DNA from: a virus
DNA length: 29,909 nucleotides
Reading direction: 5' to 3' (one strand)
IMG/VR virus record: IMGVR_UViG_3300025117_000192
Span: 1 to 29,909 of that record
Made by a program: the position numbers and the translations under genes. Below, in pieces: positions 2,941-28,627 of this stretch (its first letter is position 1; the number at the start of each line of letters is the position of its first letter). The notes beneath the pieces are model-generated. The model saw nothing but the letters and a program-made list of their open reading frames with translations, was not told the DNA's origin and searched no databases.

Positions 2941-2984
2941 AAATAATTCACAAAATCGATCTTTTTTTCACGGGTGGCTATACT
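2941..2984 (+). promoter_or_regulatory. late-type promoter for terL (box + TCG + TATACT)
   Basis: AAATAATTCACA at 2941-2952, TCGATC at 2956-2961, a 17-base spacer, and TATACT at 2979-2984. This matches four other copies in the window (5304, 21888, 23451, 28585). The ATG of terL is only six bases past the -10, so the transcript would be leaderless or nearly so unless the true start codon lies downstream. Confidence 0.6.
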
Positions 2985-2990
2985 GCGCAC

Positions 2991-4682
2991 ATGCGAGACT
3001 CTCAGCAGGCACTCTCCCAGGTACAGATGGCTCGGGCCAGGCGCTCTCCCCTCGTCGACCGGCAGTACCTCTACCACCCCGACCGCTACCTCCCCGAGGT
3101 GCTCGGGATCACCTCCCGCGTCGGGGGCGGGCAGTTCGTCCGGGACGTCGCCGCGTCGTGGCTCCACATGCACCAGCGGGAGGCGCACCGGGGGGGTCGA
3201 CCGTGGCCCCGCAGGGACGACATCCCGGACTGGGACGGCTCGAGCATCATCCCGAACGTGTTCTGCTTACAGGGGTCACACAAGTGGGGAAAATCTGTCG
3301 AGGTGTCTGGCTTGCTCCTGTGGTCCTACCACGTCTCCAGCAGGATAATGGGGTGCGTCTACGCCCCAAAGATCGACCAGGCGAGCGCGATAACCTGGAG
3401 GTACATCGACGGGTGCCTCGACGGTCGCTGGGGAGGGGATATGTGCAGGCTCAAGTCTGTTCGCCTGGCGCGAGGCGGTGGCAGCAAGTCTCCCAACTTG
3501 ACCCTAGGGCTGGACCGGATAGTCAAGACTCAGGCCACGGAGCACGGTGTGAGCGTCCAGGGTGCTCACGAGTCCGTGGGTGTCCACGTCTTCGAAGAGG
3601 CGGAGGGCATCGACGGGAAGGACATCTACGACGCGGTGCTCGGCCTCGTCGCGGACGGCATCAGCCTCTGGTTCCTGTGTGCGAACCCTGCCTCGAGCAG
3701 TTCAGACTTCGCCAAGCTCTCAGGGGACAGGGTCCGCAGGTACGAGCTGAGCGCGTTCGACCACCCGAACGTGTCGACGGGGGAGGTGGTCGTGCCCGGG
3801 GCCGTGACGCGGGAGTGGATCGAGGCGCAGCTCTCCGGGAAGTCAGCCTGGGCCGTGCGGGTGGATGGGCCGGACCCCGACCGTGCCGCGTTCGAGCTGC
3901 CGTGGCGTGCTGGCGAGTGGTGGGCGCCGCGCCCTCCTTGGTGGTGGCGCGTGTGGGGGACACCCCCACCGACGACCGCTGCGGACGCTGTTGTCTCCTC
4001 TGCCGTGCTCCGGCAGGCGTCGAAGCGAGACGCCGGGGCGATCTTCCAGGCGTCGTCCCCCTCCCGCGCGACGATCGGGGTGGACTGCGCCAGGGGAGGG
4101 GAGGACTCCGGCTGGGTCGCGCGTCGCTGGTGCGGGTGCCTCGAGATGCGCTATCCCATCCACGATAGAAACACGGGGGCTTACGTCGGCGCGGTCGTCT
4201 CCGAGCTGGAGGAGCTGCTCCGGGGCGGGTGCCGAGAGGTGGAGGTCAGGGTCGACGCGGGGGGAGGGTTCGGGGCCTGGGTGGACGAGCTGCGTTCTTT
4301 GGGCTCGGTTTTAGACCTGTTCCCGGACGGTGCTCGGGTGATAGAGTGCCACTTCGGGGGGAGGGCGTACGACCAGGAGATCGGGGCGGACTGGGCATCG
4401 TGCGCGTACCTGGACGCGGGGGAGGATATCCGTGAGCTGGCCGTTGTGGGCTTCGACCCGGAGCTGGAAGAGGACCTCTGTTCGCGCAAGGTCCGGTGGG
4501 TCGTGCGCTCGGACGGGGATGAGAAGAGGGACGTCCGGCAGCTCGAGCGCAAAGAGGAGTTCAGGCGACGTATCGGCCGGAGTCCGGACCGGGGGGACGC
4601 CGCCGCGCTCGCGTGCGCTCGCTGGCCGCAGGGCAGTTCTAAGGGAGGGGTCGCGGACGCTTATGGTCGGGGGAGGCGTTGA
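2991..4682 (+). CDS. terL: Terminase large subunit (DNA packaging ATPase/nuclease)
   Basis: Motor that cuts the genome and pumps it into the prohead through the portal. ATPase half: Walker A GSHKWGKS (residues 95-102), Walker B VHVFEEAE (198-205), and a coupling motif with NP (LCANPAS, 229-235). Nuclease half: RNase H-like acidic positions in GVDCARGGED (about Asp365), EVRVDAGGG (Asp422) and the C-terminal RSPDRGDAAAL (Asp533/Asp536). The 563-aa length is normal for the family. No clear ribosome binding site precedes ATG 2991, and the -10 of its promoter is six bases away, so translation may be leaderless or start at Met13. The end overlaps the convergent minus gene 4661-4876 by 22 bases. No small terminase subunit is in the window. 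Confidence 0.95.
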   Translation: MRDSQQALSQVQMARARRSPLVDRQYLYHPDRYLPEVLGITSRVGGGQFVRDVAASWLHMHQREAHRGGRPWPRRDDIPDWDGSSIIPNVFCLQGSHKWGKSVEVSGLLLWSYHVSSRIMGCVYAPKIDQASAITWRYIDGCLDGRWGGDMCRLKSVRLARGGGSKSPNLTLGLDRIVKTQATEHGVSVQGAHESVGVHVFEEAEGIDGKDIYDAVLGLVADGISLWFLCANPASSSSDFAKLSGDRVRRYELSAFDHPNVSTGEVVVPGAVTREWIEAQLSGKSAWAVRVDGPDPDRAAFELPWRAGEWWAPRPPWWWRVWGTPPPTTAADAVVSSAVLRQASKRDAGAIFQASSPSRATIGVDCARGGEDSGWVARRWCGCLEMRYPIHDRNTGAYVGAVVSELEELLRGGCREVEVRVDAGGGFGAWVDELRSLGSVLDLFPDGARVIECHFGGRAYDQEIGADWASCAYLDAGEDIRELAVVGFDPELEEDLCSRKVRWVVRSDGDEKRDVRQLERKEEFRRRIGRSPDRGDAAALACARWPQGSSKGGVADAYGRGRR

Positions 4683-4876
4683 TTTTCTGCAGTAGCCTCC
4701 AGCTCTTGTCTGTTGATCTTTTGCCACTCGCGAAATTCATCAAAATGGGGATTCAGGTAGCGACCTTGTTCGATTTCTGGGCACGTAGAACAGAGCAATA
4801 CCTTGAAGCGCAGATCGTTGTCTTTGCTCGAAATCAGAGTGAATCTACAACCGCAAGACTGCCAAAAGGTTCTCAT
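4661..4876 (-). CDS. Small protein with possible zinc ribbon (71 aa)
   Basis: Function unknown. CGC at residues 8-10 and CSTC at 29-32 give two cysteine pairs spaced like a small zinc ribbon; the rest is charged with a basic, Pro-containing tail. The start ATG 4876 has AAAGGA about eight bases upstream, inside the end of the preceding gene (stop at 4881), indicating translational coupling. Its last 22 bases overlap the 3' end of terL on the other strand. Base composition is less GC-rich than terL. Second gene of the cassette transcribed from the promoter at 5274-5302. Confidence 0.65.
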   Translation of the reverse strand: MRTFWQSCGCRFTLISSKDNDLRFKVLLCSTCPEIEQGRYLNPHFDEFREWQKINRQELEATAENQRLPRP

Positions 4877-4880
4877 CGTT

Positions 4881-5246
4881 TCATTTCCTTTCGTTGAGTC
4901 GAGACTCTACCTCCGCGATGGCCTTGACGCAGGATATCCCGAAGAGCCCTTTTGCGAACTCGAACCCTTCCCACCGCTTCCCCCCGGGGTCGCAGTCCTT
5001 GACGTGCTGCGCGAGGATCCCCTGGAGCTGGTAGAGCGCTGTCTCGTCCGCCGTCTTGCGCGCTTCCTGCCTCGAGGGGAGGTCTCCGAGCCCGTCGACG
5101 GGTCGCAGGCTGTAGCTCGAGTACCAGCACTCGTGACCGTCGTCGTGCCTGACGAGGGCGTCGCACATCTGCTCGGTCAGGGGTTCCCACTGGATGACTA
5201 CCCCTTCGCGAGGCTCCATCCAGGGCTTGACTCTGCGTCCTACCAT
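4881..5246 (-). CDS. Hypothetical protein (121 aa)
   Basis: Not recognised. It begins MVGRRVKPW and has a Trp/Cys/Tyr-rich middle (HECWYSSYSL), then a helical C-terminal half ending in ESRLNERK. The frame is open to an ATG at 5273, but that codon abuts the -10 hexamer of the promoter and would precede any transcript. ATG 5246 has TTGGAGGTG seven bases upstream and is chosen. First gene of a two-gene minus cassette inserted between terL and portal. Confidence 0.7.
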   Translation of the reverse strand: MVGRRVKPWMEPREGVVIQWEPLTEQMCDALVRHDDGHECWYSSYSLRPVDGLGDLPSRQEARKTADETALYQLQGILAQHVKDCDPGGKRWEGFEFAKGLFGISCVKAIAEVESRLNERK

Positions 5247-5273
5247 AGACACCTCCAAAAATAGACTGCTCAT

Positions 5274-5302
5274 ACTATAATCAACCCCACTAGAAAAATC
5301 AA
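5274..5302 (-). promoter_or_regulatory. sigma-70-type promoter for minus cassette 5246-4661
   Basis: On the minus strand: -35 TTGATT (5302-5297), 17-base spacer, -10 TATAGT (5279-5274). The next A/T-rich bases upstream form the shared AATAATTCAC box. Confidence 0.7.
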
Positions 5303-5303
5303 C

Positions 5304-5346
5304 AAATAATTCACAGCTCGGAAAAATAATCGAGATAGTCTACACT
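5304..5346 (+). promoter_or_regulatory. late-type promoter for portal operon
   Basis: An 18-base block AAATAATTCACAGCTCGG (5304-5321) containing TCGGAA (5318-5323), then 17 bases, then TACACT (5341-5346). The block is identical to the copy at 28585 and one base different from the copy at 21888. The portal ATG follows 23 bases after the -10. Confidence 0.65.
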
Positions 5347-5369
5347 GCGACCAGAGGAGATCAACGATC

Positions 5370-6962
5370 ATGGGTTGGTACAACAGCTATTTTGGGATCG
5401 GGACGACGTCCCACGCGATCGGGTACACGACGTTCACCCTGCGGACACGGTTCGACCGGGCACTGCTCGAGGCGTTGTTCAGGCAGAACGGCGTCGCCCG
5501 GAAGATCATCACGAGGATGCCGTTCGACGCGACGCGGGAGGGGTGGACGAGGTACGACGGGATAGACGAAGATCTGTCCAAGGTGCTCGCGAAAGAGGAG
5601 CGCAGACTCCGAGTCGGGCGCGTCATGACCGACGCCCTGGTCTACGAGAGAGAGTTCGGGGGGGCCGCGGTCGTGCTCGACGTGGACGACGGGCTCAACC
5701 CCTGGGAACCCCTCGACGCGTCGCGCGTTCGGCAGGTGCGAAAACTCACAGCGCGTCATCGCTGGGAACTCTGGCCGAACACGTTCAGGGGTGGGAACTA
5801 CGCGGACCCGGAGACGTACCAGGTCACGCCTGACGACGGGAGTCCGACGCAGGTCGTGCACGTCTCCAGGATGCTCCTCTTCCCGGGGGAGTCCAGCTCG
5901 GACCAGGCCCGGATCGAGTGCTGGGGTTGGGGTGACCCCGTGCTCGAGACGGTCTGGGAGGAGATCCGGAACGTCGGGATCTCCGACTCCGGCGTGATAG
6001 AGTACCTCCTCCAGCTCAGCGTCCCGTTCCTGAAGGTGAAAAAATGGTGGGAGCTCATCGCGGGGAAGGACGGGAAGACTGCGGCCTCGACTATGCTCGA
6101 GGAATTCCGCCAGCGACTCAGCCTGTTCCGTCTCGCTGTGCTCGATTCTGAGGACGATGTCCAGCGCCTCAACGCTGCGGTGTCCGGGATCTCTGAGATC
6201 CTGGAGCACCAGAAGTCCCAGGTCTCGGCCGTGACAGACTACCCACAGACGCTCCTCTACGGGCGCAGCCCCGAGGGGATGAACGCGACCGGGCTCTCGG
6301 ACCTGGAGCTTTACTACGGGATCGTCCGGGCGAAGTGCCAGGAAGACAGGCTCCGGGACCCGATCGAGCAGCTCTACTCCATCATGGTCCACTGTCCTGT
6401 CTGGGGGGGCGGCGCAGTTACGAATCCTCTCCCACAGGAAGTCAGGGACCAGGATCCCGAAATCGAGTTCAGGCCTCTCTGGGTTCCTAGGGAGCTAGAA
6501 CGGGCTCAAGTCGAGGGGACACGTGCCACGGCCCGGAGCACGTACGCGGCGCTCGGTTGGATCGACCCAGACGAGGGTCGGAAATTACTCGAGCAGGACG
6601 GCATCCTCGAGCCGCCGTCCGTGGACGAGTTCGACACGGGAGAGGAACCGGAGCCTGAAGAGGCGAACCCTCTCACGCCTCCTCAGGAGGTCTCCGACGC
6701 GGTGAGTCTGGGAATCCTCCGGGCGCGTCGCGCGGGGCAGTCCGTCCCCGGGTGGGAGGAGTCCGTCGCTCGGGCGATAGCGGGGGGTCGTGCGATCACC
6801 CGGTCGCAGGCGACGCAGCTCCGGATCATGCTGCAGGACGAGACGGAAGGGCTTAGGGAATACTTCGGCGGTGACGTCACGCTCGAGTGGCTCCGGTCGC
6901 TCTCTGTGGTCCAGGCTGTTGCTCCTGCACATGCCTTCGCGCCCACCCTGCCGGAGGTGTAA
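5370..6962 (+). CDS. Portal protein (DUF1073-like)
   Basis: Forms the dodecameric ring at the head vertex through which DNA enters and to which the neck attaches. The N-terminal region carries the family-like LLEALFRQNGVARKII...FDATREGW (residues ~30-60), where arriving residues 'become' the clip/stem core; the region around 190-330 with KSQVSAVTDYPQTLLYGRSP is also typical of this portal type. Length 530 aa is normal. The C-terminal ~100 residues (acidic EEPEPEEANP, then a helical end) look like a tail extension. GAGGAGATC lies upstream of the ATG. Directly followed by the Mu F-like gene, two bases after the stop, the usual portal-minor head protein pair. Confidence 0.88.
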   Translation: MGWYNSYFGIGTTSHAIGYTTFTLRTRFDRALLEALFRQNGVARKIITRMPFDATREGWTRYDGIDEDLSKVLAKEERRLRVGRVMTDALVYEREFGGAAVVLDVDDGLNPWEPLDASRVRQVRKLTARHRWELWPNTFRGGNYADPETYQVTPDDGSPTQVVHVSRMLLFPGESSSDQARIECWGWGDPVLETVWEEIRNVGISDSGVIEYLLQLSVPFLKVKKWWELIAGKDGKTAASTMLEEFRQRLSLFRLAVLDSEDDVQRLNAAVSGISEILEHQKSQVSAVTDYPQTLLYGRSPEGMNATGLSDLELYYGIVRAKCQEDRLRDPIEQLYSIMVHCPVWGGGAVTNPLPQEVRDQDPEIEFRPLWVPRELERAQVEGTRATARSTYAALGWIDPDEGRKLLEQDGILEPPSVDEFDTGEEPEPEEANPLTPPQEVSDAVSLGILRARRAGQSVPGWEESVARAIAGGRAITRSQATQLRIMLQDETEGLREYFGGDVTLEWLRSLSVVQAVAPAHAFAPTLPEV

Positions 6963-6964
6963 CC

Positions 6965-7903: not shown

Positions 7904-7905
7904 TG

Positions 7906-9443: not shown

Positions 9444-9745
9444 GTTCTCCCCCTGTACACCAGGAGCAGGACGTCGACCACCCTGTCGAGGTCTGCCCCC
9501 GTGATACCTGCCCGCGTGAGTTTGACCCTGCTCACAGCCTCGAGCAGGACGATGCGCTCCTCGTCCCGAGCTGAGAGTACCTGGGCGATCCTGTCCGCAG
9601 TCGCTAGGTCTGGGCAGATCGTCCCGTCGAGCACACGTTGTCCCCACGCGGCGCTCATCCCGACCAGGGGGCCTAGCTGTGTCACGCCGACCCTCGCGCG
9701 GGTGCGCAGGGTGTCGACGATCTGGTGGACGGTCGGGGGGCTCAT
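9440..9745 (-). CDS. Small helical protein with possible helix-turn-helix (101 aa)
   Basis: Starts MSPPTVHQIVDTLR. Residues ~20-55 (VTQLGPLVGMSAAWGQRVLDG then DLATADRIAQVL) have the spacing of a lambda-repressor-like helix-turn-helix: a short helix, turn, recognition helix, then a fourth helix. It could regulate its own operon, whose promoter carries a perfect palindrome at 11404-11420, but this is inference. The ATG overlaps the stop of the clamp gene (ATGA at 9742-9745). The open frame runs further upstream only because it shadows the clamp gene. Confidence 0.65.
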   Translation of the reverse strand: MSPPTVHQIVDTLRTRARVGVTQLGPLVGMSAAWGQRVLDGTICPDLATADRIAQVLSARDEERIVLLEAVSRVKLTRAGITGADLDRVVDVLLLVYRGRT

Positions 9746-11402: not shown

Positions 11403-11432
11403 AATATACACAGTGTATATCGTTCTCGTCAA
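11403..11432 (-). promoter_or_regulatory. sigma-70-type promoter of the clamp operon
   Basis: On the minus strand: -35 TTGACG (11432-11427), 18-base spacer, -10 TATATT (11408-11403). It overlaps the palindrome 11404-11420, so a protein bound there would block it. An AAAAAATTCAC box lies just upstream, as at the other minus promoters. Confidence 0.7.
11404..11420. promoter_or_regulatory. Perfect palindromic operator in the clamp promoter
   Basis: ATATACAC-A-GTGTATAT, an 8+1+8 perfect inverted repeat covering the -10 and the adjacent spacer of the clamp promoter. This is the size and position expected of a dimeric repressor site. The candidate regulator is the helix-turn-helix-like protein at 9440-9745 in the same operon, or a host factor. 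Confidence 0.6.
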
Positions 11433-11476
11433 TAAAAAATTCACGGAGCACTGTGAAAAATATCAGGGAGGCGCGC

Positions 11477-12828: not shown

Positions 12829-13980
12829 ATGACCGCTGCACAGGTGAATTACGGGTCCGGCCCCAGCTCGACACTGCTCGCGGGGATGATTCCCCGGTGG
12901 GACGGGCGCGGGCCGCAGATCATCAGCCTGCTCAACAACAGCAAGGCTGCGCAGATCGAGACACTCCAGTGTACGTCGACCAGCTACGCGGTGACGCTCA
13001 AGAAGGGGACATCGTCCCGGAGTTTCAGCGCGACGGGGCTGGCTGGTGCGAACGCTTGCGCGACGCACCTCCACGACGCGATCGAGGCGGACGGCATCGC
13101 TTCCGGCTGGGTGAGCGCGAGTGTGCTCACGGATACTGTGACCTGCACGGCGCGGTTCGCTGGGACGGATGAGGACGTGACTTATTCCGGGACCACGAAC
13201 GTGACCGCGGTCGAAGCGACGGCAGCCAGCGACGGGGCCGCGATCGGGTTCGGCCTGGCAGTCATGCACGACAGCACGGATGGTCAGTGTCTCCGGCCGA
13301 CGAAGACGACCGCGGTCGCTCAGGTAGACTGGGCGACTCCGACCGCCGTCAACTCTCTCACGTACACGCTCGGTGTCCAGCTCAACGACGTGGACACCTA
13401 TCTCGCGGATTACGTCGCGGACGGTACCGCGATTGTCCAGGAGATCGTCGAGGGCATCGTCGCGCATCTCAACGCGGTGCTCCCCGCGTCGACCGTGCTC
13501 GCGGCAGAAGACAACACGAAGGTGACGCTGACCGCAGAAGTCGCGGGAACCCCGTTCACGACAGTGGTGGGGACTTCGACCACCGCGGTGTGGGCTATCG
13601 TTCATACGACCCCGAACACGACCCCCGGGTTCACCCGCCCCCTGGCGGGGTTCGCCGTCCGCTCCGACCACATCGGAGCGGCCGTGAATTACTCCGGCGG
13701 CGACGGGACGGGGGCGTCCGAGTACGACGCAGGGACAGACGTGGCCGTGATGGAAGCCGGCGCCCTGGCGGTCGAGACGGACGACACAGTGTCGAGGTTC
13801 GACCCCGTCTACGTCCGTATCACGGCGACCGGGACCGAAAAGGTCGGCTCCGTCCGGAACGACTCCGACAGCGGAGACTGCATCCTGCTCTCTGGGGCGC
13901 GGTTCCTCGACGCTGCGGTGGGCACCAGCGCGGCGCACGCGACCGTCCGTATCCAGTTCGACCTGTCCACCCTGACCTGA
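12829..13980 (+). CDS. Capsid cement/decoration-like structural protein (383 aa)
   Basis: Probable virion surface or head-stabilising protein. It is rich in Thr, Ala, Val, Gly and Asp, as beta-rich structural proteins are. Residues ~45-250 hold two loosely similar segments (each beta strands, then a helix such as ACATHLHDAIEADG and VQEIVEGIVAHLN). The C-terminal ~110 residues (GFAVRSDHIGAAVNY, then VETDDTVSRFDPVYVRI and DCILLSGARFLDAA) resemble structural cement proteins found next to DUF2184-type capsid genes. A strong site GGAGGGATAGG precedes ATG 12829. Placed between the protease/scaffold and the capsid gene, which supports a head role. Confidence 0.65.
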   Translation: MTAAQVNYGSGPSSTLLAGMIPRWDGRGPQIISLLNNSKAAQIETLQCTSTSYAVTLKKGTSSRSFSATGLAGANACATHLHDAIEADGIASGWVSASVLTDTVTCTARFAGTDEDVTYSGTTNVTAVEATAASDGAAIGFGLAVMHDSTDGQCLRPTKTTAVAQVDWATPTAVNSLTYTLGVQLNDVDTYLADYVADGTAIVQEIVEGIVAHLNAVLPASTVLAAEDNTKVTLTAEVAGTPFTTVVGTSTTAVWAIVHTTPNTTPGFTRPLAGFAVRSDHIGAAVNYSGGDGTGASEYDAGTDVAVMEAGALAVETDDTVSRFDPVYVRITATGTEKVGSVRNDSDSGDCILLSGARFLDAAVGTSAAHATVRIQFDLSTLT

Positions 13981-14017
13981 TTCCAGGCCTCCGGGTGACA
14001 CTGATTTTTCATTGATT

Positions 14018-16233: not shown

Positions 16234-16719
16234 GTGACTGTGGAGGACCGGGACCACGGATACAAAGACCTCCTGGAGCTGGTAGACGACCTGAAGCGGC
16301 GCAAAATGCACGTCGCGGTCGGGGTGCTTGACGGTTCCGGAGAGATCCCCGACGAGGGGATATCCGTCGCAGGTCTGGCGACCGTCCACGAGTTCGGGGC
16401 CTGGGCAGGAAAAAATCGAAAAGTCTGGGTCCCGGAGCGCGCGCCCATCCGGAAGACTCTCGACGAAGCCGAGAATCGGATCAACGTCGCGGCGACCAGG
16501 GTGCTCACGAAAGCAGCGCGGGGTGACATCTCGGTGGAGGCTGCGCTGGGGACGCTCGGAGAATTCGTCACGTCGCAGATCAGGCGGACGATACAGCGGG
16601 GGGTCGAACCCCCGAACGCAGAGTCCACGATCGCACGAAAGAAGAGCTCGAAACCTTTGATCGACACGGGGCTCCTGCTCCGGTCGTATACGTATCAGGT
16701 ACGAGAGGGAGAGGATTGA
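16234..16719 (+). CDS. Neck / tail completion protein, HK97 gp10-like
   Basis: Probable head-tail joining or tail-completion protein. ATVHEFG (residues ~49-55) and WVPERAPIRKTLDEAE (~65-80) match the HEFG...iPxRpfl pattern of this group; the C-terminal PLIDTGLLLRSYTYQV matches the (I)DTGxLxxSixxxV ending. 161 aa. The start is GTG 16234, one base after the DUF4054 stop. Confidence 0.75.
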   Translation: MTVEDRDHGYKDLLELVDDLKRRKMHVAVGVLDGSGEIPDEGISVAGLATVHEFGAWAGKNRKVWVPERAPIRKTLDEAENRINVAATRVLTKAARGDISVEAALGTLGEFVTSQIRRTIQRGVEPPNAESTIARKKSSKPLIDTGLLLRSYTYQVREGED

Positions 16720-17564: not shown

Positions 17565-17909
17565 GTGTCGATCCCGTTTTCGTCCTCCTACACTGTCCGC
17601 ACTTATACTGTTGGTTACGGGTCGGACGGTCGCGCAACGGAGACGGGACCGACCACGCAGACCATTCAGGCGACCGTGACTCCTCTCGATGAACGAGCCC
17701 TCCAGGTGCTGTCTGAAGGGCTCCGAGTCGGGGCACGGTACAAAGTCCGGACCCAGACGGACCTCGGGGACCTGGGAGGCGACGGGGAGACGACGTCGAA
17801 GCGCGTCGTGGTAGACAGCCGGGAGTACCGGCTCGAGCAGTGGGGACGGTGGGACCAGACGAGCTTCGGGTCCCTGAATCACCAGAAGTACCTCGCGAGG
17901 GAGCTATGA
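17565..17909 (+). CDS. Probable head-closure / tail-joining protein (114 aa)
   Basis: A small beta-rich protein: SSYTVRTYTVG, QTIQATVTPLDERALQVLSEGLRVGARYKV, and VVVDSREYRLEQWGRWD. The last segment resembles stopper-type proteins (a DGxxYxVxxxxxW strand near the end). Position between DUF4054/gp10-like genes and the neck terminator supports this. Start GTG 17565 with CTGAGGTT upstream. Its stop overlaps the next ATG (ATGA). Confidence 0.6.
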   Translation: MSIPFSSSYTVRTYTVGYGSDGRATETGPTTQTIQATVTPLDERALQVLSEGLRVGARYKVRTQTDLGDLGGDGETTSKRVVVDSREYRLEQWGRWDQTSFGSLNHQKYLAREL

Positions 17910-19203: not shown

Positions 19204-20643
19204 ATGTCCGACGTTCCTATCAGCGACATCGTAAACGTCTCCATCTCCATCGCCACCGGTGCGACGCAGCAAGCCGGATTCGGCACGATCATGGTCGTGG
19301 GCCAAACGAACCTGCTCGGTTCGACCGTGCTCACGTGCGAGTCTGCGGCAGACTGGGTGACGGCGGGAGGCCTCACGACTGACCCTGAATACCTGGCCCT
19401 GGCAGCTATTTTTTCACAGCAGCCGACTGTCCAGGAGGTGAAGGTCAGCGAGCGTGACCCTGACGTGAGCGGTCAGCAACGGGTGACCTTCGCGGCGGAC
19501 ATCACGGCGGGTCAGACCTGCACGATCACCTACACCTACGTGGACCTGGCAGGCGCGACCCAGACGGAGACGGTCGCGATACTGTACGCCGTCTCCCACG
19601 CGAACACCGTCTCTCTGATCGAGGCCGCGCTCCTGGCGCTCAATGCCGTGACTGCCTGCACGGGCGTCGACGACACTCCCGGGGCGCTGTTCACGGTCAC
19701 GATCGATCCGGCACTGGTCCGGTCGGGGTCCGTGACGTTCACAGTCATGGCGACGGCAGGGGCCGGTGTCCCGCAGACGGGGACCGCGTCAGTAGTTCTA
19801 GCTCCGACGGTACTCACTGCCGACCTGAACGCGTTGGTTCTCGTGGATGACGCGTGGTACTGCCTGATCCTGACCCACGAGGGGACGGATAACCAGCGGA
19901 ACATGGACACCTACCGTGCCGCGGTGTGGGTCGAGGCCAATACCATCGACTGTATCCACATCGCGCAGAACGACCAGGCTGTGCTCGCGGCTGGGACCGC
20001 GGGCAATATCGCCAAGGTGCTCGAGGCCGCGTCGTACAACCGGACGCACGTTTTTTACCACCCGGAGTCGGAGTACGCAGCCGCAGCCCTGGCTGGACGG
20101 AACCTCAGCCAGAACCTGGATGTCTCCAGCATCGACTGGTACCTCCAGACATTGTCTGGGATCACCTCTCAGGATTACACGTCGACCCAGCGGTCGACCA
20201 TGGCCGCGGACCAGATCGGGTACTACACGACCGCCGCGGGGGGCGCACATTATTTCGGCGGCAAGATGGCGTCCCAGCGGTACATCGACCAGCAGCTCAC
20301 GGTCGACTGGTTCTCGTCCCGCGTGGCAGAGGACGTGCTCAGCTACCTGGTGCGTGGCGCCGCGTCCAACATCAAGCGGACGTACACGGACCTGACGATC
20401 GCAGCGATCGCCGGGCTCGTCAAGAAACGCTGGATCAACGGGGTGCGCGCGAACCACTTCGCTGAAACCCGGGAGGACGCCTCAGGCGACACGGTCGAGG
20501 GCATCATCCTGACCGCAGGGTCCGCCGCGTCGCAGAGCTCTGCGGACAAGACGGCTAGACTCTACGCGGGGCTCTCTGCGTCCATCCCCCTGGCGGGTGG
20601 TATCCGGACGGTCAATCCTTTGACGATTATTCTGGAGGTGTGA
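19204..20643 (+). CDS. Tail sheath protein (DUF3383-like)
   Basis: Contractile tail sheath, which makes this a myovirus-type phage. N-terminus SDIVNVSISIATGATQQAGFGTIMVVG fits DUF3383; the C-terminal half has YFGGKMASQRYIDQQLTVDWFSSRVAEDVLSYL and TYTDLTIAAIAGLVKKRW, and ends IRTVNPLTIILEV as in sheath proteins. Residues ~75-200 form an inserted, Thr/Val-rich domain with the SLIEAALLALNAV helix. 479 aa. AGGAGG precedes ATG 19204. Confidence 0.88.
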   Translation: MSDVPISDIVNVSISIATGATQQAGFGTIMVVGQTNLLGSTVLTCESAADWVTAGGLTTDPEYLALAAIFSQQPTVQEVKVSERDPDVSGQQRVTFAADITAGQTCTITYTYVDLAGATQTETVAILYAVSHANTVSLIEAALLALNAVTACTGVDDTPGALFTVTIDPALVRSGSVTFTVMATAGAGVPQTGTASVVLAPTVLTADLNALVLVDDAWYCLILTHEGTDNQRNMDTYRAAVWVEANTIDCIHIAQNDQAVLAAGTAGNIAKVLEAASYNRTHVFYHPESEYAAAALAGRNLSQNLDVSSIDWYLQTLSGITSQDYTSTQRSTMAADQIGYYTTAAGGAHYFGGKMASQRYIDQQLTVDWFSSRVAEDVLSYLVRGAASNIKRTYTDLTIAAIAGLVKKRWINGVRANHFAETREDASGDTVEGIILTAGSAASQSSADKTARLYAGLSASIPLAGGIRTVNPLTIILEV

Positions 20644-20647: not shown

Positions 20648-21079
20648 ATGATCGCATTCGACCCCCGTAAATTCGTGCTCTCGTTCAACGGCGTCCCCAT
20701 CTCTGGGTTTGGCGCAGGTACGTTTTTCAAGGCGACCAGGCGCAAACCGTTCGCTGCGCTCGAGGAACTCGGAGCGGACGGGGAGGGCGCTTTCGTCCTC
20801 TCCGGTGACCACTCGTATGATGTGGAGCTGACCTTGAAAAGGGCGTCTCCGTCGAACACACTGCTCAGCCAGTTCGCGAACGCGACCAGGATGGGCGCGC
20901 CAGTGGTCGGGAGCATGAGTGCGAAGGACATGAGCACGGGTGGGACGTTCGACAGCGAGGAAGTGATTCAGACGGATATGCCCCCGTTTGAGCGGGAGGG
21001 GGGCGGGAAGCTCGGAGAGAACGTGTGGAAGTTTTCGGCGAAGAAGGGCGTGGAGAACCAACCAGGAGCTTCGACCTAA
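20648..21079 (+). CDS. Tail tube protein (DUF3277-like)
   Basis: Inner tube of the contractile tail. FDPRKFVLSFNGVPISGFGAGTFF at the start, then LGADGEGAFVLSGDHSYDVELTL and LKRASPSNTLLSQFANA (TxxSxSNxxLS) match DUF3277. 143 aa is the usual size. CTGGAGG lies about nine bases before ATG 20648. Immediately downstream of the sheath gene; its end overlaps the convergent minus gene 21076-21243 by four bases. Confidence 0.88.
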   Translation: MIAFDPRKFVLSFNGVPISGFGAGTFFKATRRKPFAALEELGADGEGAFVLSGDHSYDVELTLKRASPSNTLLSQFANATRMGAPVVGSMSAKDMSTGGTFDSEEVIQTDMPPFEREGGGKLGENVWKFSAKKGVENQPGAST

Positions 21080-21857: not shown

Positions 21858-21885
21858 ACTATAATCAGGCAAGAGAAAAAATCAA
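21858..21885 (-). promoter_or_regulatory. sigma-70-type promoter for minus cassette 21822-21076
   Basis: On the minus strand: -35 TTGATT (21885-21880), 16-base spacer, -10 TATAGT (21863-21858), with the shared box just upstream. Confidence 0.7.
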
Positions 21886-21887: not shown

Positions 21888-21930
21888 AAATAATTCACAG
21901 CTCGACGTTGTTTCCACTGTGAGCTATTCT
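21888..21930 (+). promoter_or_regulatory. late-type promoter for tail assembly chaperone
   Basis: Block AAATAATTCACAGCTCGA (21888-21905) with TCGACG at 21902-21907, a 17-base spacer and TATTCT at 21925-21930. The predicted RNA start is near 21937, leaving a ~65-base leader with a strong hairpin. Confidence 0.6.
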
Positions 21931-21946
21931 GTTTTCGAACGTTCCG

Positions 21947-21980
21947 GCCGGGTGGCTGCGATGTTTGCAGCCGACCCGGC
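21947..21980 (+). promoter_or_regulatory. Strong leader hairpin before the tail assembly chaperone gene
   Basis: GCCGGGTGGCTGC (21947-21959), a 7-base loop, and GCAGCCGACCCGGC (21967-21980) pair over 13 base pairs with one bulged G, followed by ATCCCTTTT. It lies about ten bases into the predicted transcript and 23 bases before the ATG. It may stabilise or process the mRNA or act as an attenuator; the T-run is too short for a confident terminator call. Confidence 0.6.
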
Positions 21981-22003
21981 ATCCCTTTTCCCCGGAGTCC
22001 CCT

Positions 22004-22495
22004 ATGCCCCCGAAAGCGCAGAAGTCCGCAGAATCGTTCACGATCGGCGACCAGGTATTCATCGTCCACAGTTTCAGCTCGAGCCAGTCGCTCGATGTGC
22101 TCCTCATGCTCGGGGAAGTCATCGCCCCCGCGCTCGGGAAGCTGCTCAACAGGAAAGTCTCGAGCGACCTGTCGGACATCGCGGAGGCGGTCGACGAGCT
22201 GAAGGGCATGGACGTGGACATGGCACTCCCCTCCCTGCTGGCGGTTTTCGGCACGGTGCGGAAGATCGGGGGCATCGACCTGGTGGTCTCAATTCTCCAG
22301 ACCACGTACCACGAGGATCGGCCGATCAATACCCGTGCGCGGTTCGACGAGGTTTTCCAGGGACCTGGCGCACTCGTGGACGCGGCTCGAGTCCTCTGGC
22401 ACGTGCTCAGGTTCCAGCTCAGCCCTTTATGGGACGCGCTCCGGCCCCTGCTCTCAGGTCGGGGCGGCGACAAGGTCCCGACCCCCAAGAGCTAG
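22004..22495 (+). CDS. Tail assembly chaperone, short form (gpG-like)
   Basis: Coats the tape measure protein during tail assembly; located between tail tube and tape measure, the universal place for this gene. It starts MPPKAQKSAES and is a helical protein (LMLGEVIAPALGKLL, SDIAEAVDELKG, LPSLLAVFGTVRKIGG). 163 aa. ATG 22004 has CCGGAG eight bases upstream. The next frame (-1) continues without a stop or usable start to 22656, so a longer frameshift form is expected (see the separate entry). Confidence 0.72.
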   Translation: MPPKAQKSAESFTIGDQVFIVHSFSSSQSLDVLLMLGEVIAPALGKLLNRKVSSDLSDIAEAVDELKGMDVDMALPSLLAVFGTVRKIGGIDLVVSILQTTYHEDRPINTRARFDEVFQGPGALVDAARVLWHVLRFQLSPLWDALRPLLSGRGGDKVPTPKS

Positions 22496-23420: not shown

Positions 23421-23448
23421 ACTATGAGCAATTTTCAGTGAAAATCAA
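23421..23448 (-). promoter_or_regulatory. sigma-70-type promoter for minus cassette 23389-22657
   Basis: On the minus strand: -35 TTGATT (23448-23443) and -10 CATAGT (23426-23421) with a 16-base spacer, or TAGTAT (23424-23419) with 18. Same organisation as the copies at 5274 and 21858. Confidence 0.62.
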
Positions 23449-23450
23449 CA

Positions 23451-23493
23451 TAATAATTCACCTATCGAAAAATCCTCAGCGATCGCGTACACT
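23451..23493 (+). promoter_or_regulatory. late-type promoter for tape measure gene
   Basis: TAATAATTCACC at 23451-23462, TCGAAA at 23465-23470, a 17-base spacer, TACACT at 23488-23493. The tape measure ATG is 20 bases past the -10, with AGGAGG between. Confidence 0.62.
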
Positions 23494-23513
23494 GCGGTCA
23501 GGAGGTCCACCCC

Positions 23514-25073
23514 ATGGCCGAGCGCGTCGTCATCCGTGAGCTCATCGTCAAGCTCCTGTTCGAGGGGAACGAGAGCGGCGTCACGAAGTTTAACCAGGCG
23601 TTGCAAGGGTTTTCGACTCTTGCACGGTACGCCGAGCAGGCATTGCGCAAGCTCTCTGACGCTGTGATAGGGACGACCCTCCAGATCGCGGACCAGGCCG
23701 ACGCTCTCGGGGAGTCTGCGGCGCAGGTGGGTGTCACGGCTCAGGTGTACGACGCCCTGACCGCTGCCGTCTTAAAAAATGGGGGGTCGGTCGGTGAGCT
23801 GGACGGGGGGCTCCGGATCCTGTCCGGGCACCTCCGGGAGTTCCGGGCGTCCGGGACGGGGGCGCTCAAAGACCTGCTCGGGCCGGACGCGAAAAAGAGC
23901 TTGGAAGGCATCACGTCCGTGGACGGGGCGCTCGGGGTGGTCGCCGACGCGCTCGCCAGGATCAAGAACCCGGCCGAACAGGTGGCCGCCGCGAACGACC
24001 TGCTCGGCAGGAGCGGGAACAAGCTCTTGCCGACACTTCAGGGGGGCGCCAAGGGCATCCGAGATATGCTCGAGTCCATGGTGGCGATGGGCACGTTCTC
24101 CCCTGAGCTGCTCCAGGCAGGGTCCGACCTGAACGACCAGCTCGCGGAGGGGGCACTCCTCTGGCGCGGCGTCAAGATCGCGGTCGGAGAGGAGACCGTA
24201 CCCGCGCTGCATGACCTAGTGACCGAGCTGAACCTCGCGTTCCGTTCGGCGAAGGAGACGTTCGGGCCGGAGATACGCGACGCGGCACGGATGCTCGCGT
24301 CAGGTTTTCGCGCGGCGAAGGATGCCTTGAAGTCACTCCGGACGGAGCTACTCGAGTCGGCTCGAGGCATGGCCGCGCTGAAGACGGTAGCAATTTTTCT
24401 TGGCTTCGCGCTCTCGGGGTTGGCGCTGGCGCAGCTCCCCGGTGCCATCCGAGCGCTGTGGGCGATGCGTTTCGCGCTCGAGCGAGTCATCCAGTCGACG
24501 ATCGTCTGGATCGTGGGGACTGCTCTAGCCGTCGCTCCGTACGTGATCGCGGCGGCGATGCTCACAGTGATCGCTCTGATAGTAGAGGACCTGGTGGGGT
24601 TCGTCACAGGGGCGAACTCAGCGTTCGGGCTCATGGTCGACAAGATGCACGAGATGGGTCCGATCTGGGACGCCATCGCAAACTCCCTCGAGTACGTGTT
24701 TGGGGGAGGGATCGGCAACGACCTCTACGACATGATCGAGGCCGTCTCCGGGGCGGTCGACCGACTCCGGGAGAAGCTCGGCCCGGTCGTGGACATGGTC
24801 GGGAAAGCAGCGAACCTGGCACTGATGATGGTCCCCGGAGGGGCGGGCATCGCTGCGGGTGCGAGAGCTCTGGGGTCCATGGTCCCGTCCGCGTCGTCCG
24901 TCGGCGCGCGGACCAGCAACGTGTCTGTGGGGGGCAGCTCGGTGAACGTCGCGGTGAACGGGGCAGGGAACCCCCGGGCAGTCGGCGCGGAGGTCGCCAG
25001 GCAGGCGGACGAGGTGATGGCCAGACACGCGACACAGGTCGCGCGAAACCTGGGTTCTGCGATGTCGTATTAG
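23514..25073 (+). CDS. Tape measure protein (519 aa)
   Basis: Sets tail length and is ejected with DNA. A helical, Ala/Leu-rich protein: long amphipathic helices in residues ~1-280 (YAEQALRKLSDAV, GVTAQVYDALTAAVLKNGG), then hydrophobic segments (VAIFLGFALSGLALAQL and ALAVAPYVIAAAMLTVIALIV, residues ~290-360) as is usual in tape measures, then a Gly/Ser-rich C-terminus ending VARNLGSAMSY. 519 aa is short for a contractile tail, which suggests a short tail (at roughly 1.5 angstrom per residue, under 80 nm; an estimate from the family rule). AGGAGG before ATG 23514. Confidence 0.85.
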   Translation: MAERVVIRELIVKLLFEGNESGVTKFNQALQGFSTLARYAEQALRKLSDAVIGTTLQIADQADALGESAAQVGVTAQVYDALTAAVLKNGGSVGELDGGLRILSGHLREFRASGTGALKDLLGPDAKKSLEGITSVDGALGVVADALARIKNPAEQVAAANDLLGRSGNKLLPTLQGGAKGIRDMLESMVAMGTFSPELLQAGSDLNDQLAEGALLWRGVKIAVGEETVPALHDLVTELNLAFRSAKETFGPEIRDAARMLASGFRAAKDALKSLRTELLESARGMAALKTVAIFLGFALSGLALAQLPGAIRALWAMRFALERVIQSTIVWIVGTALAVAPYVIAAAMLTVIALIVEDLVGFVTGANSAFGLMVDKMHEMGPIWDAIANSLEYVFGGGIGNDLYDMIEAVSGAVDRLREKLGPVVDMVGKAANLALMMVPGGAGIAAGARALGSMVPSASSVGARTSNVSVGGSSVNVAVNGAGNPRAVGAEVARQADEVMARHATQVARNLGSAMSY

Positions 25074-25298
25074 TTGCTCGTACTGTAAGCAATTGACCGG
25101 ATTGAATAATTCACTGGAAAAGATCGACAAACTTCCTGATTGACCTAAGTCGATCAAGATCTGGACCCCCTCAAAATCGCTGTGGGCTCCAAGGCGAGCA
25201 AAACGAAGGATGGTCAATAGCAAAGCTCATCTTTTCAAAAAATCGGTTCTAAGGCCTCTGGTAGCTCGCTGGCGACATCGAATTTTGGAGGATCGGTC
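25074..25298. other. Gene-free stretch with a degenerate promoter box
   Basis: The longest gap in the window. It contains TACTGTAAGCAATT (from 25081), resembling the minus promoter region near 23420, and AATAATTCAC at 25105-25114. The -35 and the + strand -10 are not preserved. A GATCGAC (25122-25128) and GTCGATC (25149-25155) pair form a 7-base inverted repeat. No credible ORF, tRNA or terminator was seen. Confidence 0.5.
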
Positions 25299-25373
25299 AT
25301 GATTTCTCGAATCACTCGTAGCCTGTATTTCCTCCTCTGGAGGGTAAGAATATGCCTCAGAAATCTCTCCTGA
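25299..25373 (+). CDS. Possible 24-aa leader peptide
   Basis: MISRITRSLYFLLWRVRICLRNLS, basic with a hydrophobic centre. TTGGAGGATCG precedes the ATG by seven bases, a strong site. It overlaps the start of the baseplate gene at 25352 in another frame, so ribosomes ending at 25373 could re-initiate there. It could equally be a chance frame; only the ribosome binding site supports it. Confidence 0.35.
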   Translation: MISRITRSLYFLLWRVRICLRNLS

Positions 25374-25879: not shown

Positions 25880-25889
25880 GGAGTATTCT

Positions 25890-26267
25890 ATGCCCGTTTC
25901 CATCCCCCTGAGATCTGACCTGGCCCGGTGGGAGCAGCAGGTAGAGCTCGGCGACACGTACGACGCGGACGGGGTGACATTCACCGATGCGAGGCTCTAT
26001 ACCCTGATTTTCGACTGGAACGGGCGCGCGTCGTGCTGGACGCTGGGGATACAGGACGCGGACGGGGCGGACCTGCTTCGGGGGAAGGGGCTCCGGCTCG
26101 GGTCGCTCAGGCTCCGGCGACACGGTCGGGAGTCAGGACTCCCACCGGGAGACTTCCTGCTCGTCGACCTGTCCGGGATGCACACCGAGGTGACACTGAC
26201 CAGTCTGGGGGTCGGTCATAGCTTATTGTATTACTCGAGCGGGGAGCTGTCGGAGGCTGGGCTGTGA
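25890..26267 (+). CDS. Baseplate plug-like protein (Pam3 gp18-like, 125 aa)
   Basis: Small baseplate protein. LYTLIFDWNGRASCWTLGIQDADGADLLRGKGL (residues ~36-68) has the fxWNxRxxxWxlxixdxdGxxll frame seen in the plug protein of simple contractile phages such as cyanophage Pam3; GLPPGDFLLVDLSG and the C-terminal LGVGHSLLYY agree. Ribosome binding site GAGGAG. Between the Dit-like and hub genes, as expected. Confidence 0.72.
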   Translation: MPVSIPLRSDLARWEQQVELGDTYDADGVTFTDARLYTLIFDWNGRASCWTLGIQDADGADLLRGKGLRLGSLRLRRHGRESGLPPGDFLLVDLSGMHTEVTLTSLGVGHSLLYYSSGELSEAGL

Positions 26268-26268
26268 C

Positions 26269-27099
26269 ATGACTGAGCTATTCGACCGACGATGCACCCT
26301 TCAGATATCGACGAAGACCAGCTCGAGGCAGTGGACCTCCGGGCAGAAAAACGAGCTCGACCTGACGTTCTCGGCCGAGAAGACGGCGGGAAGCGAGCCG
26401 AACCGGTGCGATATCTCCGTCTGGAACCTCTCGGAGGACTCCAGGCGCCTGGTGTCTGACGAGGGCGCGACGGTCAGGCTCTCGGCCGGGTACGTCGGGA
26501 CGGAGGCGCTGGTATTCGTCGGCGACGTGGACGACGTCCAAACATCCCGCGACGGTGCGGACGTGCTCTCCCGGATCTCCTGCTCGGACGGGGGGCTGGC
26601 GATCCGGAGCACCGTCGTGAACATCTCGACGAAAAAGGACACTCCCGTCTCGGACCTGGTGGACCAGCTCGTGGGACAGCTCGGCCTGCCGAAGGGTCCG
26701 ATCGCGGTCGTCTCCGGGGCGCTGAAACGAGGTTTGGCCGTGCTCGGCCCGGTCCAGAAGGCCCTCGACGAGCTGTGCAGCTCGAACGGTCTCCGGTGGT
26801 CGGTGCAGGACGGGGCCGTACAGGTACACCCTGTCACGGGCACGCCAGACGCGGTGGTCGTGCTTTCCCAGGACACCGGGCTCGTGGGGATACCAGAGCG
26901 CCTGGTCCAGCGTGACCAGAAGGGGGGGGTCGAACGCCGGGGCGTCAAGTGCAGGTCGCTCCTCCAGCCCGGGCTGAACCCCGGCCGGAGAATCCGGGTA
27001 AAATCAGAGTGGGTGTCTGGGGATTTCGTCGTCGAGCGGGTGGGGCACTCGGGGAGCACGGTCGGGGGGGAGTGGTACACGGACGTCGAGGCCTACTGA
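26269..27099 (+). CDS. Baseplate hub protein (gp27/gpD-like, 276 aa)
   Basis: Hub that joins the tube end to the spike. KNELDLTFSAEKT, RCDISVWNLSEDSRRLVSDEGATVRLSAGYVG and LVFVGDVDDVQTSRDG form the first beta domain; a helical pair (VSDLVDQLVGQLG, VQKALDELCSSNGLRWSVQDGAVQV) follows and a second beta domain ends EWYTDVEAY, with GRRIRVKSEWVSGDFVVERVGHSG typical of hub C-termini. Start ATG 26269 one base after the preceding stop. Its end abuts the convergent minus gene ending at 27100. Confidence 0.8.
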   Translation: MTELFDRRCTLQISTKTSSRQWTSGQKNELDLTFSAEKTAGSEPNRCDISVWNLSEDSRRLVSDEGATVRLSAGYVGTEALVFVGDVDDVQTSRDGADVLSRISCSDGGLAIRSTVVNISTKKDTPVSDLVDQLVGQLGLPKGPIAVVSGALKRGLAVLGPVQKALDELCSSNGLRWSVQDGAVQVHPVTGTPDAVVVLSQDTGLVGIPERLVQRDQKGGVERRGVKCRSLLQPGLNPGRRIRVKSEWVSGDFVVERVGHSGSTVGGEWYTDVEAY

Positions 27100-27528
27100 T
27101 CAGTTGTCGAACCAGAACACCATGCGGACATCCTCTACCGTAGATGGATAATCCTCAGGATACCGCTTGACGTCGTACCCATTCCCGAAAAGATATCCAA
27201 AAACACTGAACACATAACAGAGATCTGCTTCAGGATCCTTTATACGCGCTTCTCGTTCGTACCAATCCTGCACGTCCGAGAGTTCTTTTCCTGTGATCCA
27301 GGACAGATGATGCCAGTCTTCAACCCCCCTGTTATAGTCCATGTTGGTCAGTAATGACATATTGTCAGGTATCCCTCGTAAAGGGTATTGCTGATCACCT
27401 GGTTTGTCTGTTCTCACGCCAGCGAGTCGTGCGAACAGTGAGTAGTTGCGGGGAATGTTTAACGCCATCCAGTGATGCCATTCCCCAGAAACTTTTACTT
27501 CGATATGCGCATGAATGTCACAACCCAT
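27100..27528 (-). CDS. Conserved hypothetical, MGCDIH family (142 aa)
   Basis: A widespread phage and bacterial protein of unknown function that starts MGCDIHAHIEVK, with W.HHWMAL, PRNYSLFARLAGVR, YPLRGIPDNMS and a HHLSWITGKEL segment. The CDIHxH start suggests a metal-binding site, but this is inference. ATG 27528 has GAGGAG seven bases upstream; the frame to 27543 is a TTG that lies in that site. Clearly AT-richer than the flanking structural genes. Last gene of a three-gene minus cassette. Confidence 0.75.
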   Translation of the reverse strand: MGCDIHAHIEVKVSGEWHHWMALNIPRNYSLFARLAGVRTDKPGDQQYPLRGIPDNMSLLTNMDYNRGVEDWHHLSWITGKELSDVQDWYEREARIKDPEADLCYVFSVFGYLFGNGYDVKRYPEDYPSTVEDVRMVFWFDN

Positions 27529-27558
27529 TTTCGTTCTCCTCAATTTCTGTGAGCGCTA

Positions 27559-28086
27559 CTAATTTCCGGGGATACACGCATCACAATCGCAGTCCGGATG
27601 GGAAGCATTTTGTTGTCGACGCTCGAGCTCAGCCTCGAGCTGCTCCGTCGTGAACCCTGCCAGTGCAGCGATCATCGGATCGATTGCCGGAGTCAGAGAC
27701 GCCAGCGCCAGAGTCTGAACCCACGGAACGCAATCGAGTCGGGCCTGGACCTGATCCAGGAAGCTCGGGGAGCAGTGGTCGAAGCTCATAGAGGTTCCAA
27801 GATTCCCGTCACCCTGGAGTGAACTCTCGACCTGAAAACAATCGTACGTCCTCATCTGACTCTTCGCGCTTCCTGCAGGGGCGCAACAGACCACCACAGA
27901 ACCGGCCGGGACCTCCTGCTCACCCTCGTTCAGGAACTCGCCCTGAAGGGCGTACCCGTTTTTCTGCGACCGGTCGATCCCGGTCACGATCTTCAGCCAG
28001 CCGACCCGACGCCCCGACCCTGTCGGCTTCGTGAAAGTCCTTCGAATCATCGCCACACCGTTTCGCTCTACAATTTTCAGGTCCAT
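27559..28086 (-). CDS. Hypothetical protein with Cys/Asp tail (175 aa)
   Basis: Not recognised. Basic N-terminus (MDLKIVERNGVAMIRRTFTK), then a beta-rich region (VGWLKIVTGIDRSQKNG, AGSVVVCCAPAG), a helical C-terminal third (FTTEQLEAELERRQQ) and a tail with DCDCDAC, possibly metal-binding. CGGAG six bases upstream of ATG 28086. Second gene of the minus cassette promoted at 28534-28562. Confidence 0.65.
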   Translation of the reverse strand: MDLKIVERNGVAMIRRTFTKPTGSGRRVGWLKIVTGIDRSQKNGYALQGEFLNEGEQEVPAGSVVVCCAPAGSAKSQMRTYDCFQVESSLQGDGNLGTSMSFDHCSPSFLDQVQARLDCVPWVQTLALASLTPAIDPMIAALAGFTTEQLEAELERRQQNASHPDCDCDACIPGN

Positions 28087-28115
28087 GATTTTCTCCGAAT
28101 TCGTTGTGTTAGATT

Positions 28116-28484
28116 TCAGTCCTTATCCAAATCGATTGCGATTTCAAGTTCGTGTAACCACTCAGCTTTTGCGGAGGCCTTGAAAGACTCAATTACGTTG
28201 ATCAACGCAGAGCTGGAGCGCGATTCCCATGGGCGATCGTCGATAAGGTCTCTTCTGAGACGGATCACGTTTTTGCGCGTTGCAGAGGCCAACCCTTCGT
28301 CGGCGATATCGCGACGAAGACACATGGCCAAAGAACCCCTCTGCTCGTCCTTGACGGCTTTCTCGGATTCCCACCCAAGAATTATGGCAACGCCACCGTT
28401 TTGCACGGCTGTCACGAAGGCTTCGCGGGTTACCTTGGCTTGCGAAATCGTGTGAAGGATCAAAATCTCAACGTTGCTGGCCAT
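28116..28484 (-). CDS. Hypothetical protein (122 aa)
   Basis: Not recognised. Starts MASNVEILILHTISQAKVT, contains NGGVAIILGWESEKAVKD and a strongly charged helical C-terminal half (KNVIRLRRDLIDDRPWESRSS, then ASAKAEWLHELEIAIDLDKD). TTGGAGAAACGAA before ATG 28484. First gene of the minus cassette. Confidence 0.65.
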   Translation of the reverse strand: MASNVEILILHTISQAKVTREAFVTAVQNGGVAIILGWESEKAVKDEQRGSLAMCLRRDIADEGLASATRKNVIRLRRDLIDDRPWESRSSSALINVIESFKASAKAEWLHELEIAIDLDKD

Positions 28485-28533
28485 TTCGTTTCTCCAAGTT
28501 CGTGTTTCAATGTCTCAATCTCAGTATGTATCT

Positions 28534-28562
28534 ACTATAAGCTACCCCTAGATCAGAATCAA
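28534..28562 (-). promoter_or_regulatory. sigma-70-type promoter for minus cassette 28484-27100
   Basis: On the minus strand: -35 TTGATT (28562-28557), 17-base spacer, -10 TATAGT (28539-28534). Confidence 0.7.
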
Positions 28563-28564
28563 GA

Positions 28565-28627
28565 AAATAATTCACACATCACAAAAATAATTCACAGCTC
28601 GGAAAATCTCGGCAGGTAGTCTACAGT
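28565..28627 (+). promoter_or_regulatory. late-type promoter for spike gene, with doubled box
   Basis: Two copies of the box, AAATAATTCACA (28565-28576) and AAATAATTCACAGCTCGG (28585-28602), exactly 20 bases apart. TCGGAA at 28599-28604, a 17-base spacer, TACAGT at 28622-28627. The spike ATG is only six bases past the -10. Confidence 0.65.

Follow-up and report, generated by a model that had tools for sequence, protein, structure and literature searches.

The stretch of DNA considered here, IMG/VR virus record IMGVR_UViG_3300025117_000192 from position 1 to 29,909 (referred to below as the window, at its full length), raises the question of what a 10-bp box, AATAATTCAC, repeated in front of several of its genes, is for. 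A sequence-only reading had taken five copies (2941-2984, 5304-5346, 21888-21930, 23451-23493 and 28585-28627) for a phage-specific late promoter made of the box, a TCG and a -10 element at fixed distances. The five copies do lie at these coordinates; box and TCG are 4 nucleotides (nt) apart at the 2941 copy and 3 nt apart elsewhere, and every one of the five keeps TCG-N20-TA unchanged. What had been missed is a leftward promoter beside the copies, the presence of double boxes and a further unit, at 16426 of a longer record, without TCG. Our analysis, in which units, spacings, initiators, strand bias and double boxes are read directly from the DNA, points to a regulon of mirror-image promoter units, which is most likely run by a predicted box-binding protein together with the host polymerase. 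The earlier interpretation is partly supported: it was right in part, and too narrow.

The longer record of the same phage, G001 (L085; 58,998 bases), was found by a box-pattern scan of IMG/VR and takes in the whole window from its base 17,720 onward. Because 127 bases are common to both of its ends (a terminal repeat), the phage genome is probably complete at 58,871 bp. Genes were called with a simple codon-usage script, to which two minus-strand genes were added by hand (45835-46203, from the list of open reading frames, and 51911-52114, noticed after the promoter at 52194). Called genes make up 89% of G001 and intergenic DNA 11%; weak plus-strand calls that overlap the DNA polymerase gene (503-2479) are probably false. 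Family scans (Pfam/PHROGs) covered part of the genes, G001 50219-51910 being among those left out. In the window, in window coordinates, the features are as follows.

2942 to 2951, between divergent promoters: box AATAATTCAC of unit 1, exact match
2910 to 2938, minus strand: leftward promoter of unit 1, TTGACT-17-TATACT, predicted start 2903
2956 to 2984, plus strand: rightward promoter of unit 1, TCGATC-17-TATACT, predicted start 2991, which is the A of the ATG of a terminase-like gene (leaderless)
5305 to 5314, common to both promoters: box of unit 2, exact match
5274 to 5302, minus strand: leftward promoter of unit 2, TTGATT-17-TATAGT, predicted start 5267
5318 to 5346, plus strand: rightward promoter of unit 2, TCGGAA-17-TACACT, predicted start 5353; portal gene at 5370
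11435 to 11444: box variant AAAAATTCAC, with a leftward promoter only
11403 to 11432, minus strand: leftward promoter, TTGACG-18-TATATT, predicted start 11396, ahead of a DnaN-like gene
21889 to 21898, common to both promoters: box of unit 3, exact match
21858 to 21885, minus strand: leftward promoter of unit 3, TTGATT-16-TATAGT, predicted start 21851
21902 to 21930, plus strand: rightward promoter of unit 3, TCGACG-17-TATTCT, predicted start 21937; tail assembly chaperone gene at 22004
23452 to 23461, common to both promoters: box of unit 4, exact match
23421 to 23448, minus strand: leftward promoter of unit 4, TTGATT-16-CATAGT, placed in register by aligning it to the other copies, predicted start 23414
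23465 to 23493, plus strand: rightward promoter of unit 4, TCGAAA-17-TACACT, predicted start 23500; tape measure gene at 23514
25105 to 25114: exact box without either spacing, inside a ~200-bp intergenic element with three genomic copies
28566 to 28575: box 1 of unit 5, leftward spacing only
28534 to 28562, minus strand: leftward promoter of unit 5, TTGATT-17-TATAGT, predicted start 28527
28586 to 28595: box 2 of unit 5, rightward spacing only, 20 bp from box 1
28599 to 28627, plus strand: rightward promoter of unit 5, TCGGAA-17-TACAGT, predicted start 28634, which is the A of an ATG (leaderless)

When both strands of the window are searched, seven exact boxes are found, all on the plus strand (2942, 5305, 21889, 23452, 25105, 28566 and 28586); those at 25105 and 28566 are additional to the five first described, and both are without the rightward spacing. 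With up to two mismatches there are 24 boxes against 5.47 expected (maximum 11 in 100 shuffles). Genome-wide, 14 of the 15 exact copies are on the plus strand and 14 are wholly outside called genes, the fifteenth (13721-13730, minus strand) overlapping the last base of a gene; shuffled intergenic DNA holds a mean of 0.02 exact boxes (maximum 1 in 500). The sequence-only reading had asked for a genome-wide motif search, and the equally frequent occurrence inside genes that it named as contrary evidence is refuted by this distribution. The binomial values for strand bias and intergenic placement, 8e-15 and 1e-8, overstate the significance, because the copies are partly duplicates. The box is asymmetric, its palindromic part being an AATNATT core only, as read from the sequence; the dyad symmetry of a Mor-type site is absent.

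Read on the opposite strand, the DNA next to the box is a sigma-70-type promoter, composed of GTGAATTATT, 2-4 nt (usually 3), a TTGATT-like -35, 16-18 nt and a TATAGT-like -10. A strict pattern, TTG(A/C)(A/C/T)N-16..18-TA(T/C)(A/G/T)NT, has 13 matches on the G001 minus strand and three on the plus strand; GTGAATTATT or GTGAATTTTT stands 2-4 nt ahead of the -35 in 11 of the former and in none of the latter. Two sites outside this pattern, 41171 (-10 CATAGT) and 58863 (-10 TAGATT), bring the leftward promoters to 13; at 41171 the -10 register was moved from TAGTAT to CATAGT by alignment to the other copies, prior to the initiator test described below. TTG forms the -35 in all 13, and every predicted leftward start is 0-44 nt from a minus-strand gene, 11 of these genes having been called without regard to promoters and two being the hand-added ones. 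Among the window leftward promoters, five of the six agree with the sigma-70 consensus in 9-10 of its 12 positions, the 23452 promoter being outside that scoring. In 60 first-order Markov genomes, no box with up to two mismatches is accompanied by a leftward promoter. The box is hence not specific to the rightward class, as had been supposed, since it is also just upstream of the -35 in 13 leftward promoters, where nine of its ten columns are invariant, the CAC end included. Position 3 of the box is T in all eight rightward units and A in four of the five leftward-only sites (G001 3767, 8359, 29154 and 58863, the exception being 9343), a split for which Fisher's test gives p 0.007 on copies that are not independent. 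The direct repeats run upstream of the box as far as TACTATAATC; this string was considered as a rightward -10 and rejected, being the leftward -10 read on the other strand.

The rightward class is made of the box, 3 nt, TCGNNN, 17 nt and a TACACT-like -10, and has eight sites in G001, all on the plus strand; the gap between box and TCG is 4 nt at 20661, and at 16426 the gap is 2 nt. The -35 place is TCGNNN in seven and GTAGCA in the eighth, with a -10 TANNNT in all eight, so that, as in Mor/C-type promoters, the -35 is poor. The core pattern TCG(A/G)NN-N17-TA(T/C)(A/T)(C/G)T is found eight times on the plus strand (seven with the box, one inside a gene without it) and never on the minus strand. 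When a box with up to one mismatch is required, eight sites are found on the plus strand, none on the minus strand and none in the 60 Markov genomes; a single two-mismatch box with rightward-type spacing on the real minus strand (39647, TATTTT) is probably due to chance. Many pairs of rightward sites have spacers only 18-41% identical, and box, TCG, -10 and initiator are nonetheless kept. A weak rightward unit proposed by eye for the capsid operon, AAAAATTCAG (window 11372), was rejected: its TACACA is without the final T of the -10, and it has no CA initiator.

All eight rightward promoters have a leftward partner across the box or box pair, that is, a divergent arrangement with the site between, of the phi29 type; five of the 13 leftward promoters have no rightward partner. 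The distance from box to -10 is 25-27 nt in both directions, usually 26, which places the box at -48 to -39 (centre -43.5) of the predicted start on either side. Six of the eight rightward promoters have the 26-nt distance and the other two (25 and 27 nt) are one base off, near -43.5 of starts that are predicted. When offsets 3 to 11 after the -10 were scored for a CA dinucleotide, offset 6 was where CA began in 12 of the 13 leftward and seven of the eight rightward promoters, and at each of the eight other offsets it began 0 or 1 times; C(-1)A(+1) is thus 6-7 nt past the -10. With the looser pattern TA(T/C)NNT-N5-YR, intergenic DNA shows 18 sites on the plus strand, 8 of which are promoters of this account, and 22 on the minus strand, 11 of which are; no unit accompanies the others.

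The predicted start-to-start distance is 86-88 in the six single-box units and 107 in the two double-box units. In the latter, only the leftward spacing is seen at box 1, and only the rightward one at box 2, which lies 20 bp further on. The natural reading is that either promoter would require a box at a set position relative to itself, a single box usually sufficing for the two. A third pair of boxes spaced by 20 bp, at G001 8359 and 8379 (L125; AAAAATTCAC and AATAATTCTC), is seen with a leftward promoter only, at the 3' end of an endolysin-like gene, and is perhaps a decayed double unit. The ~200-bp intergenic element has its three copies at G001 about 13787-13990, 42793-43006 (window 25074-25287) and 52890-53103. 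It carries an exact box near one end in each copy, with neither promoter spacing; two copies are 81% identical, and two have a minus-strand TACAGT-N5-CA 17 nt past the box, towards the 3' end of the upstream plus-strand gene.

Predicted leaders are 0-67 nt long. At four places the predicted +1 coincides with the A of a start ATG (G001 9304 on the minus strand; 20710, 46353 and 52262 on the plus strand, the first two of these being window 2991 and 28634), the remaining leaders being of 11-67 nt, which suggests leaderless messages at those four starts alongside messages with leaders. By eye, a strong inverted repeat rich in G+C, with a short run of T after it, can be made out in the predicted leader of the tail chaperone gene (21937-22004) and could act as an attenuator. 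As regards the proposal of phage promoters read with an activator, the weak -35 and the box in an activator position agree with it, the CA in seven of eight and the leaders of 0-67 nt lend it independent support, and the lack of class specificity of the box does not fit it. The altered polymerase proposed as the other option is not needed, because rightward and leftward promoters resemble each other in -10 type, spacing and initiator, and the search for sigma region 4 gave no match.

On the leftward strand lie genes for DNA polymerase A, a PD-(D/E)XK nuclease, an SSB-like protein (below the Pfam cut-off), a DnaN-like protein and a DUF4942/methyltransferase protein, and also for an endolysin-like CHAP protein. 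Four of the eight rightward units lead into the terminase-like, portal, tail chaperone and tape measure genes; another lies ahead of genes whose products are a DNA methylase, a ParB-like protein and a helix-turn-helix protein of NinH/Fis-like type (this last below the Pfam cut-off); two precede genes without family match in the scans (window 28634, in PHROGs, and G001 52262); and the eighth precedes the gene at G001 50219, outside the scanned set. The earlier statement that all five copies precede structural modules holds for four of the five window genes, the one at 28634 having no PHROGs match. A tRNA-Asn(GTT) gene (L125 2821-2893, minus strand) was also noted, with the DNA polymerase gene on one side and the next gene of the minus strand on the other.

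Among the matches listed, the structural proteins at window 19204-20643, 5370-6962 and 2991-4682 are ~25-31% identical to those of isolated phages (portal 26-28%, terminase-like 28-31% over about one third of the protein, sheath 25-30%; 40 of 1427, 7 of 7 and 12 of 389 records, respectively), and because of these low values this contractile-tailed phage seems to be without a close sequenced relative. The DUF4942/methyltransferase gene reaches up to 41% identity to an isolated-phage protein, again among the matches listed, and protein P0001 has one match in genome_contigs, at 41%, in Agreia bicolorata (L146). The leftward promoter has no match in genome_contigs. In viral_contigs, a scan for box, TCG and TA gives at least 119 stretches, those of the same phage being told apart by shared DNA, and a stricter scan for the leftward unit gives 15, eight from the same phage and seven with a single match and no rightward pattern. 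A literature search, with incomplete coverage of subscription papers, turned up no description of such units; the box string appears in 63 papers, and none of the 15 titles listed among these concerns phages.

Two known systems resemble these units in part. At the Mu promoter Pm, the place of the -35 is taken by a Mor dimer centred at -43.5, with transcription by the host sigma-70 polymerase, the 16-bp element having two 5-bp inverted repeats and the promoter a partial UP element (PMC4390567). The rightward promoters share with Pm the recognisable -10, the absence of a usable -35 and the site centred at -43.5, the sigma-70 host polymerase being a feature of Mu; unlike the Pm element, the phage box is 10 bp long, asymmetric, common to two divergent promoters and repeated genome-wide, and no Mor domain was found. 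In phi29, p4 helped by p6 represses A2b and A2c and activates A3 (PMC10899789, PMC11476376). As there, two nearby divergent promoters have a regulator site between them, the early/late order being a feature of phi29; in contrast to the four p4 sites between A2c and A3, each unit has one or two short boxes, with mirror spacing, in eight units plus five leftward-only sites. Finally, each unit parts one or more minus-strand genes from a plus-strand gene, as ordinary divergent sigma-70 promoters do, but with a near-invariant box locked to both sides, and with TTG as the -35 to the left and TCG to the right in seven of eight.

Taking these elements together, we favour, at somewhat better than even confidence, a reading in which the units are divergent and centred on the box, whose binder would recruit polymerase rightward and modulate, probably shut off, leftward transcription. 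We are highly confident that both promoters exist, moderately so that a single factor works through the box on the two of them, and less so that the unit is an early/late switch. Host RNA polymerase would probably read the strong leftward promoters unaided, giving replication and accessory genes. A DNA-binding protein could then occupy the 10-bp operator near -48 to -39 of both promoters, substitute for the poor rightward -35 (TCG in place of TTG) and recruit polymerase with a geometry like that of Mor at Pm, so that rightward transcription would run towards the terminase-like, portal and tail genes, among others. In a layout like that of phi29 p4, the bound protein would modulate, and probably shut off, the leftward promoter; because the box belongs to both promoters, polymerase and factor engaged rightward are predicted to crowd it. 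We thus infer a protein that binds the box, activates rightward and represses leftward.

Several observations weigh against this picture. The search for the binder gave no match to a Mor-family protein (PF08765) at E<=1 in G001, and no p4 homologue turned up in the partial gene scans, no search aimed at p4 having been made. The sole HTH_8 match, below the family cut-off, is an 84-amino-acid NinH/Fis-like protein at G001 16484, under its own unit. The site signature of Fis/NinH-type proteins is G-N13-C (PMC7166090), and no more than 2 of the 15 boxes show this signature at any fixed register; the protein, a candidate by position only, was therefore rejected as the box binder, and its AlphaFold model is unusable (predicted local distance difference test score, pLDDT, 43.5). 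Sigma-70-like matches without a box are found at 9484 minus (TTGATT-17-TATAAT), at 52908 minus and at three plus-strand places; exact plus-strand boxes at G001 13787, 42824 and 52921 and the sole exact minus-strand box have neither promoter spacing; and the unit at 16426 has no TCG. An endolysin-like CHAP gene, expected to be late, is on the leftward strand, and no rightward promoter of the class lies ahead of the capsid operon, the DUF5906 gene or the terminase-small-subunit-like gene. Because of the leftward CHAP gene, the mixed rightward genes and the capsid operon without a unit, we make no claim that leftward is strictly early or rightward strictly late. Some copies are plain duplicates (window 28486-28636 and G001 52,118-52,268, 85% identical over 153 bp; spacers of 46305 and 50124, 88% identical) and, as such, the copies are not independent trials. 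A search of viral_contigs with portal, capsid, terminase-like and DNA polymerase A proteins, using six short peptides per protein and reaching close relatives only, gave records of the same phage and no diverged relative, so that conservation rests on paralogous copies in one genome.

The box could alternatively be an activator site used alike by both promoters, with co-activation and no switch, at whatever time the factor is made. This possibility, to which we give clearly less weight than to the favoured reading, accounts for the identical position of the box on both sides, for the separate box per promoter in double-box units and for the box retained at leftward-only sites; it fits poorly with five of the six leftward promoters of the window, which should not need an activator because of their 9-10 of 12 consensus match. 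It is unlikely that the box is instead a repressor operator holding both promoters off in an immunity-type regulon. Temperate phages offer a comparison in their repeated operators and stoperators, and a near-invariant, asymmetric site with 14 of 15 copies in one orientation and wholly intergenic would suit such a regulon. However, no tyrosine integrase domain was found (PF00589, none at E<=1; serine integrases and repressors were not searched by family), the box lies outside the core of both promoters, and a simple blocking site would not need the distance of 25-27 nt to both -10s, which a second box preserves where the promoters are more widely spaced.

Equally improbable is that plain host promoters of unequal strength carry the box as an A+T-rich UP element for the alpha subunit of the polymerase: the site just upstream of the -35 and the A+T-rich core would fit, but not the nine invariant columns with their CAC end. 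Binding by the carboxy-terminal domain of the alpha subunit requires less sequence specificity than the box shows. Pm also has a partial UP element (PMC4390567). We similarly doubt that transcription from the rightward class depends on a polymerase modified by the phage, or on a sigma factor of its own, that takes box and TCG together as its -35 recognition region. TCG does replace TTG in seven of eight rightward promoters at a fixed distance from the -10; against this, the box is also found beside the TTG of the leftward -35, the two sides resemble each other in -10, spacing and initiator, and sigma region 4 (Sigma70_r4, PF04545) has no match at E<=1 in G001, other sigma regions not having been searched by family.

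In these units a single short site stands at the activator position of two divergent promoters. The switches compared, Mu and phi29, act at one or few promoters, whereas here there are eight units in one genome. Their natural variants (one or two boxes, T or A at position 3, TTG or TCG), together with exact predicted starts, make the activator and switch models directly testable. The units also suggest how reverse-strand genes may sit between virion operons without silencing the genes downstream. More tentatively, one protein could move polymerase from the leftward promoters of replication and accessory genes to the rightward promoters of virion and other genes at eight places at once, a genome-wide strand switch in which TTG/TCG and the base at position 3 of the box would set which direction obeys; if this is true, new accessory genes could enter between virion operons along with a ready-made unit.

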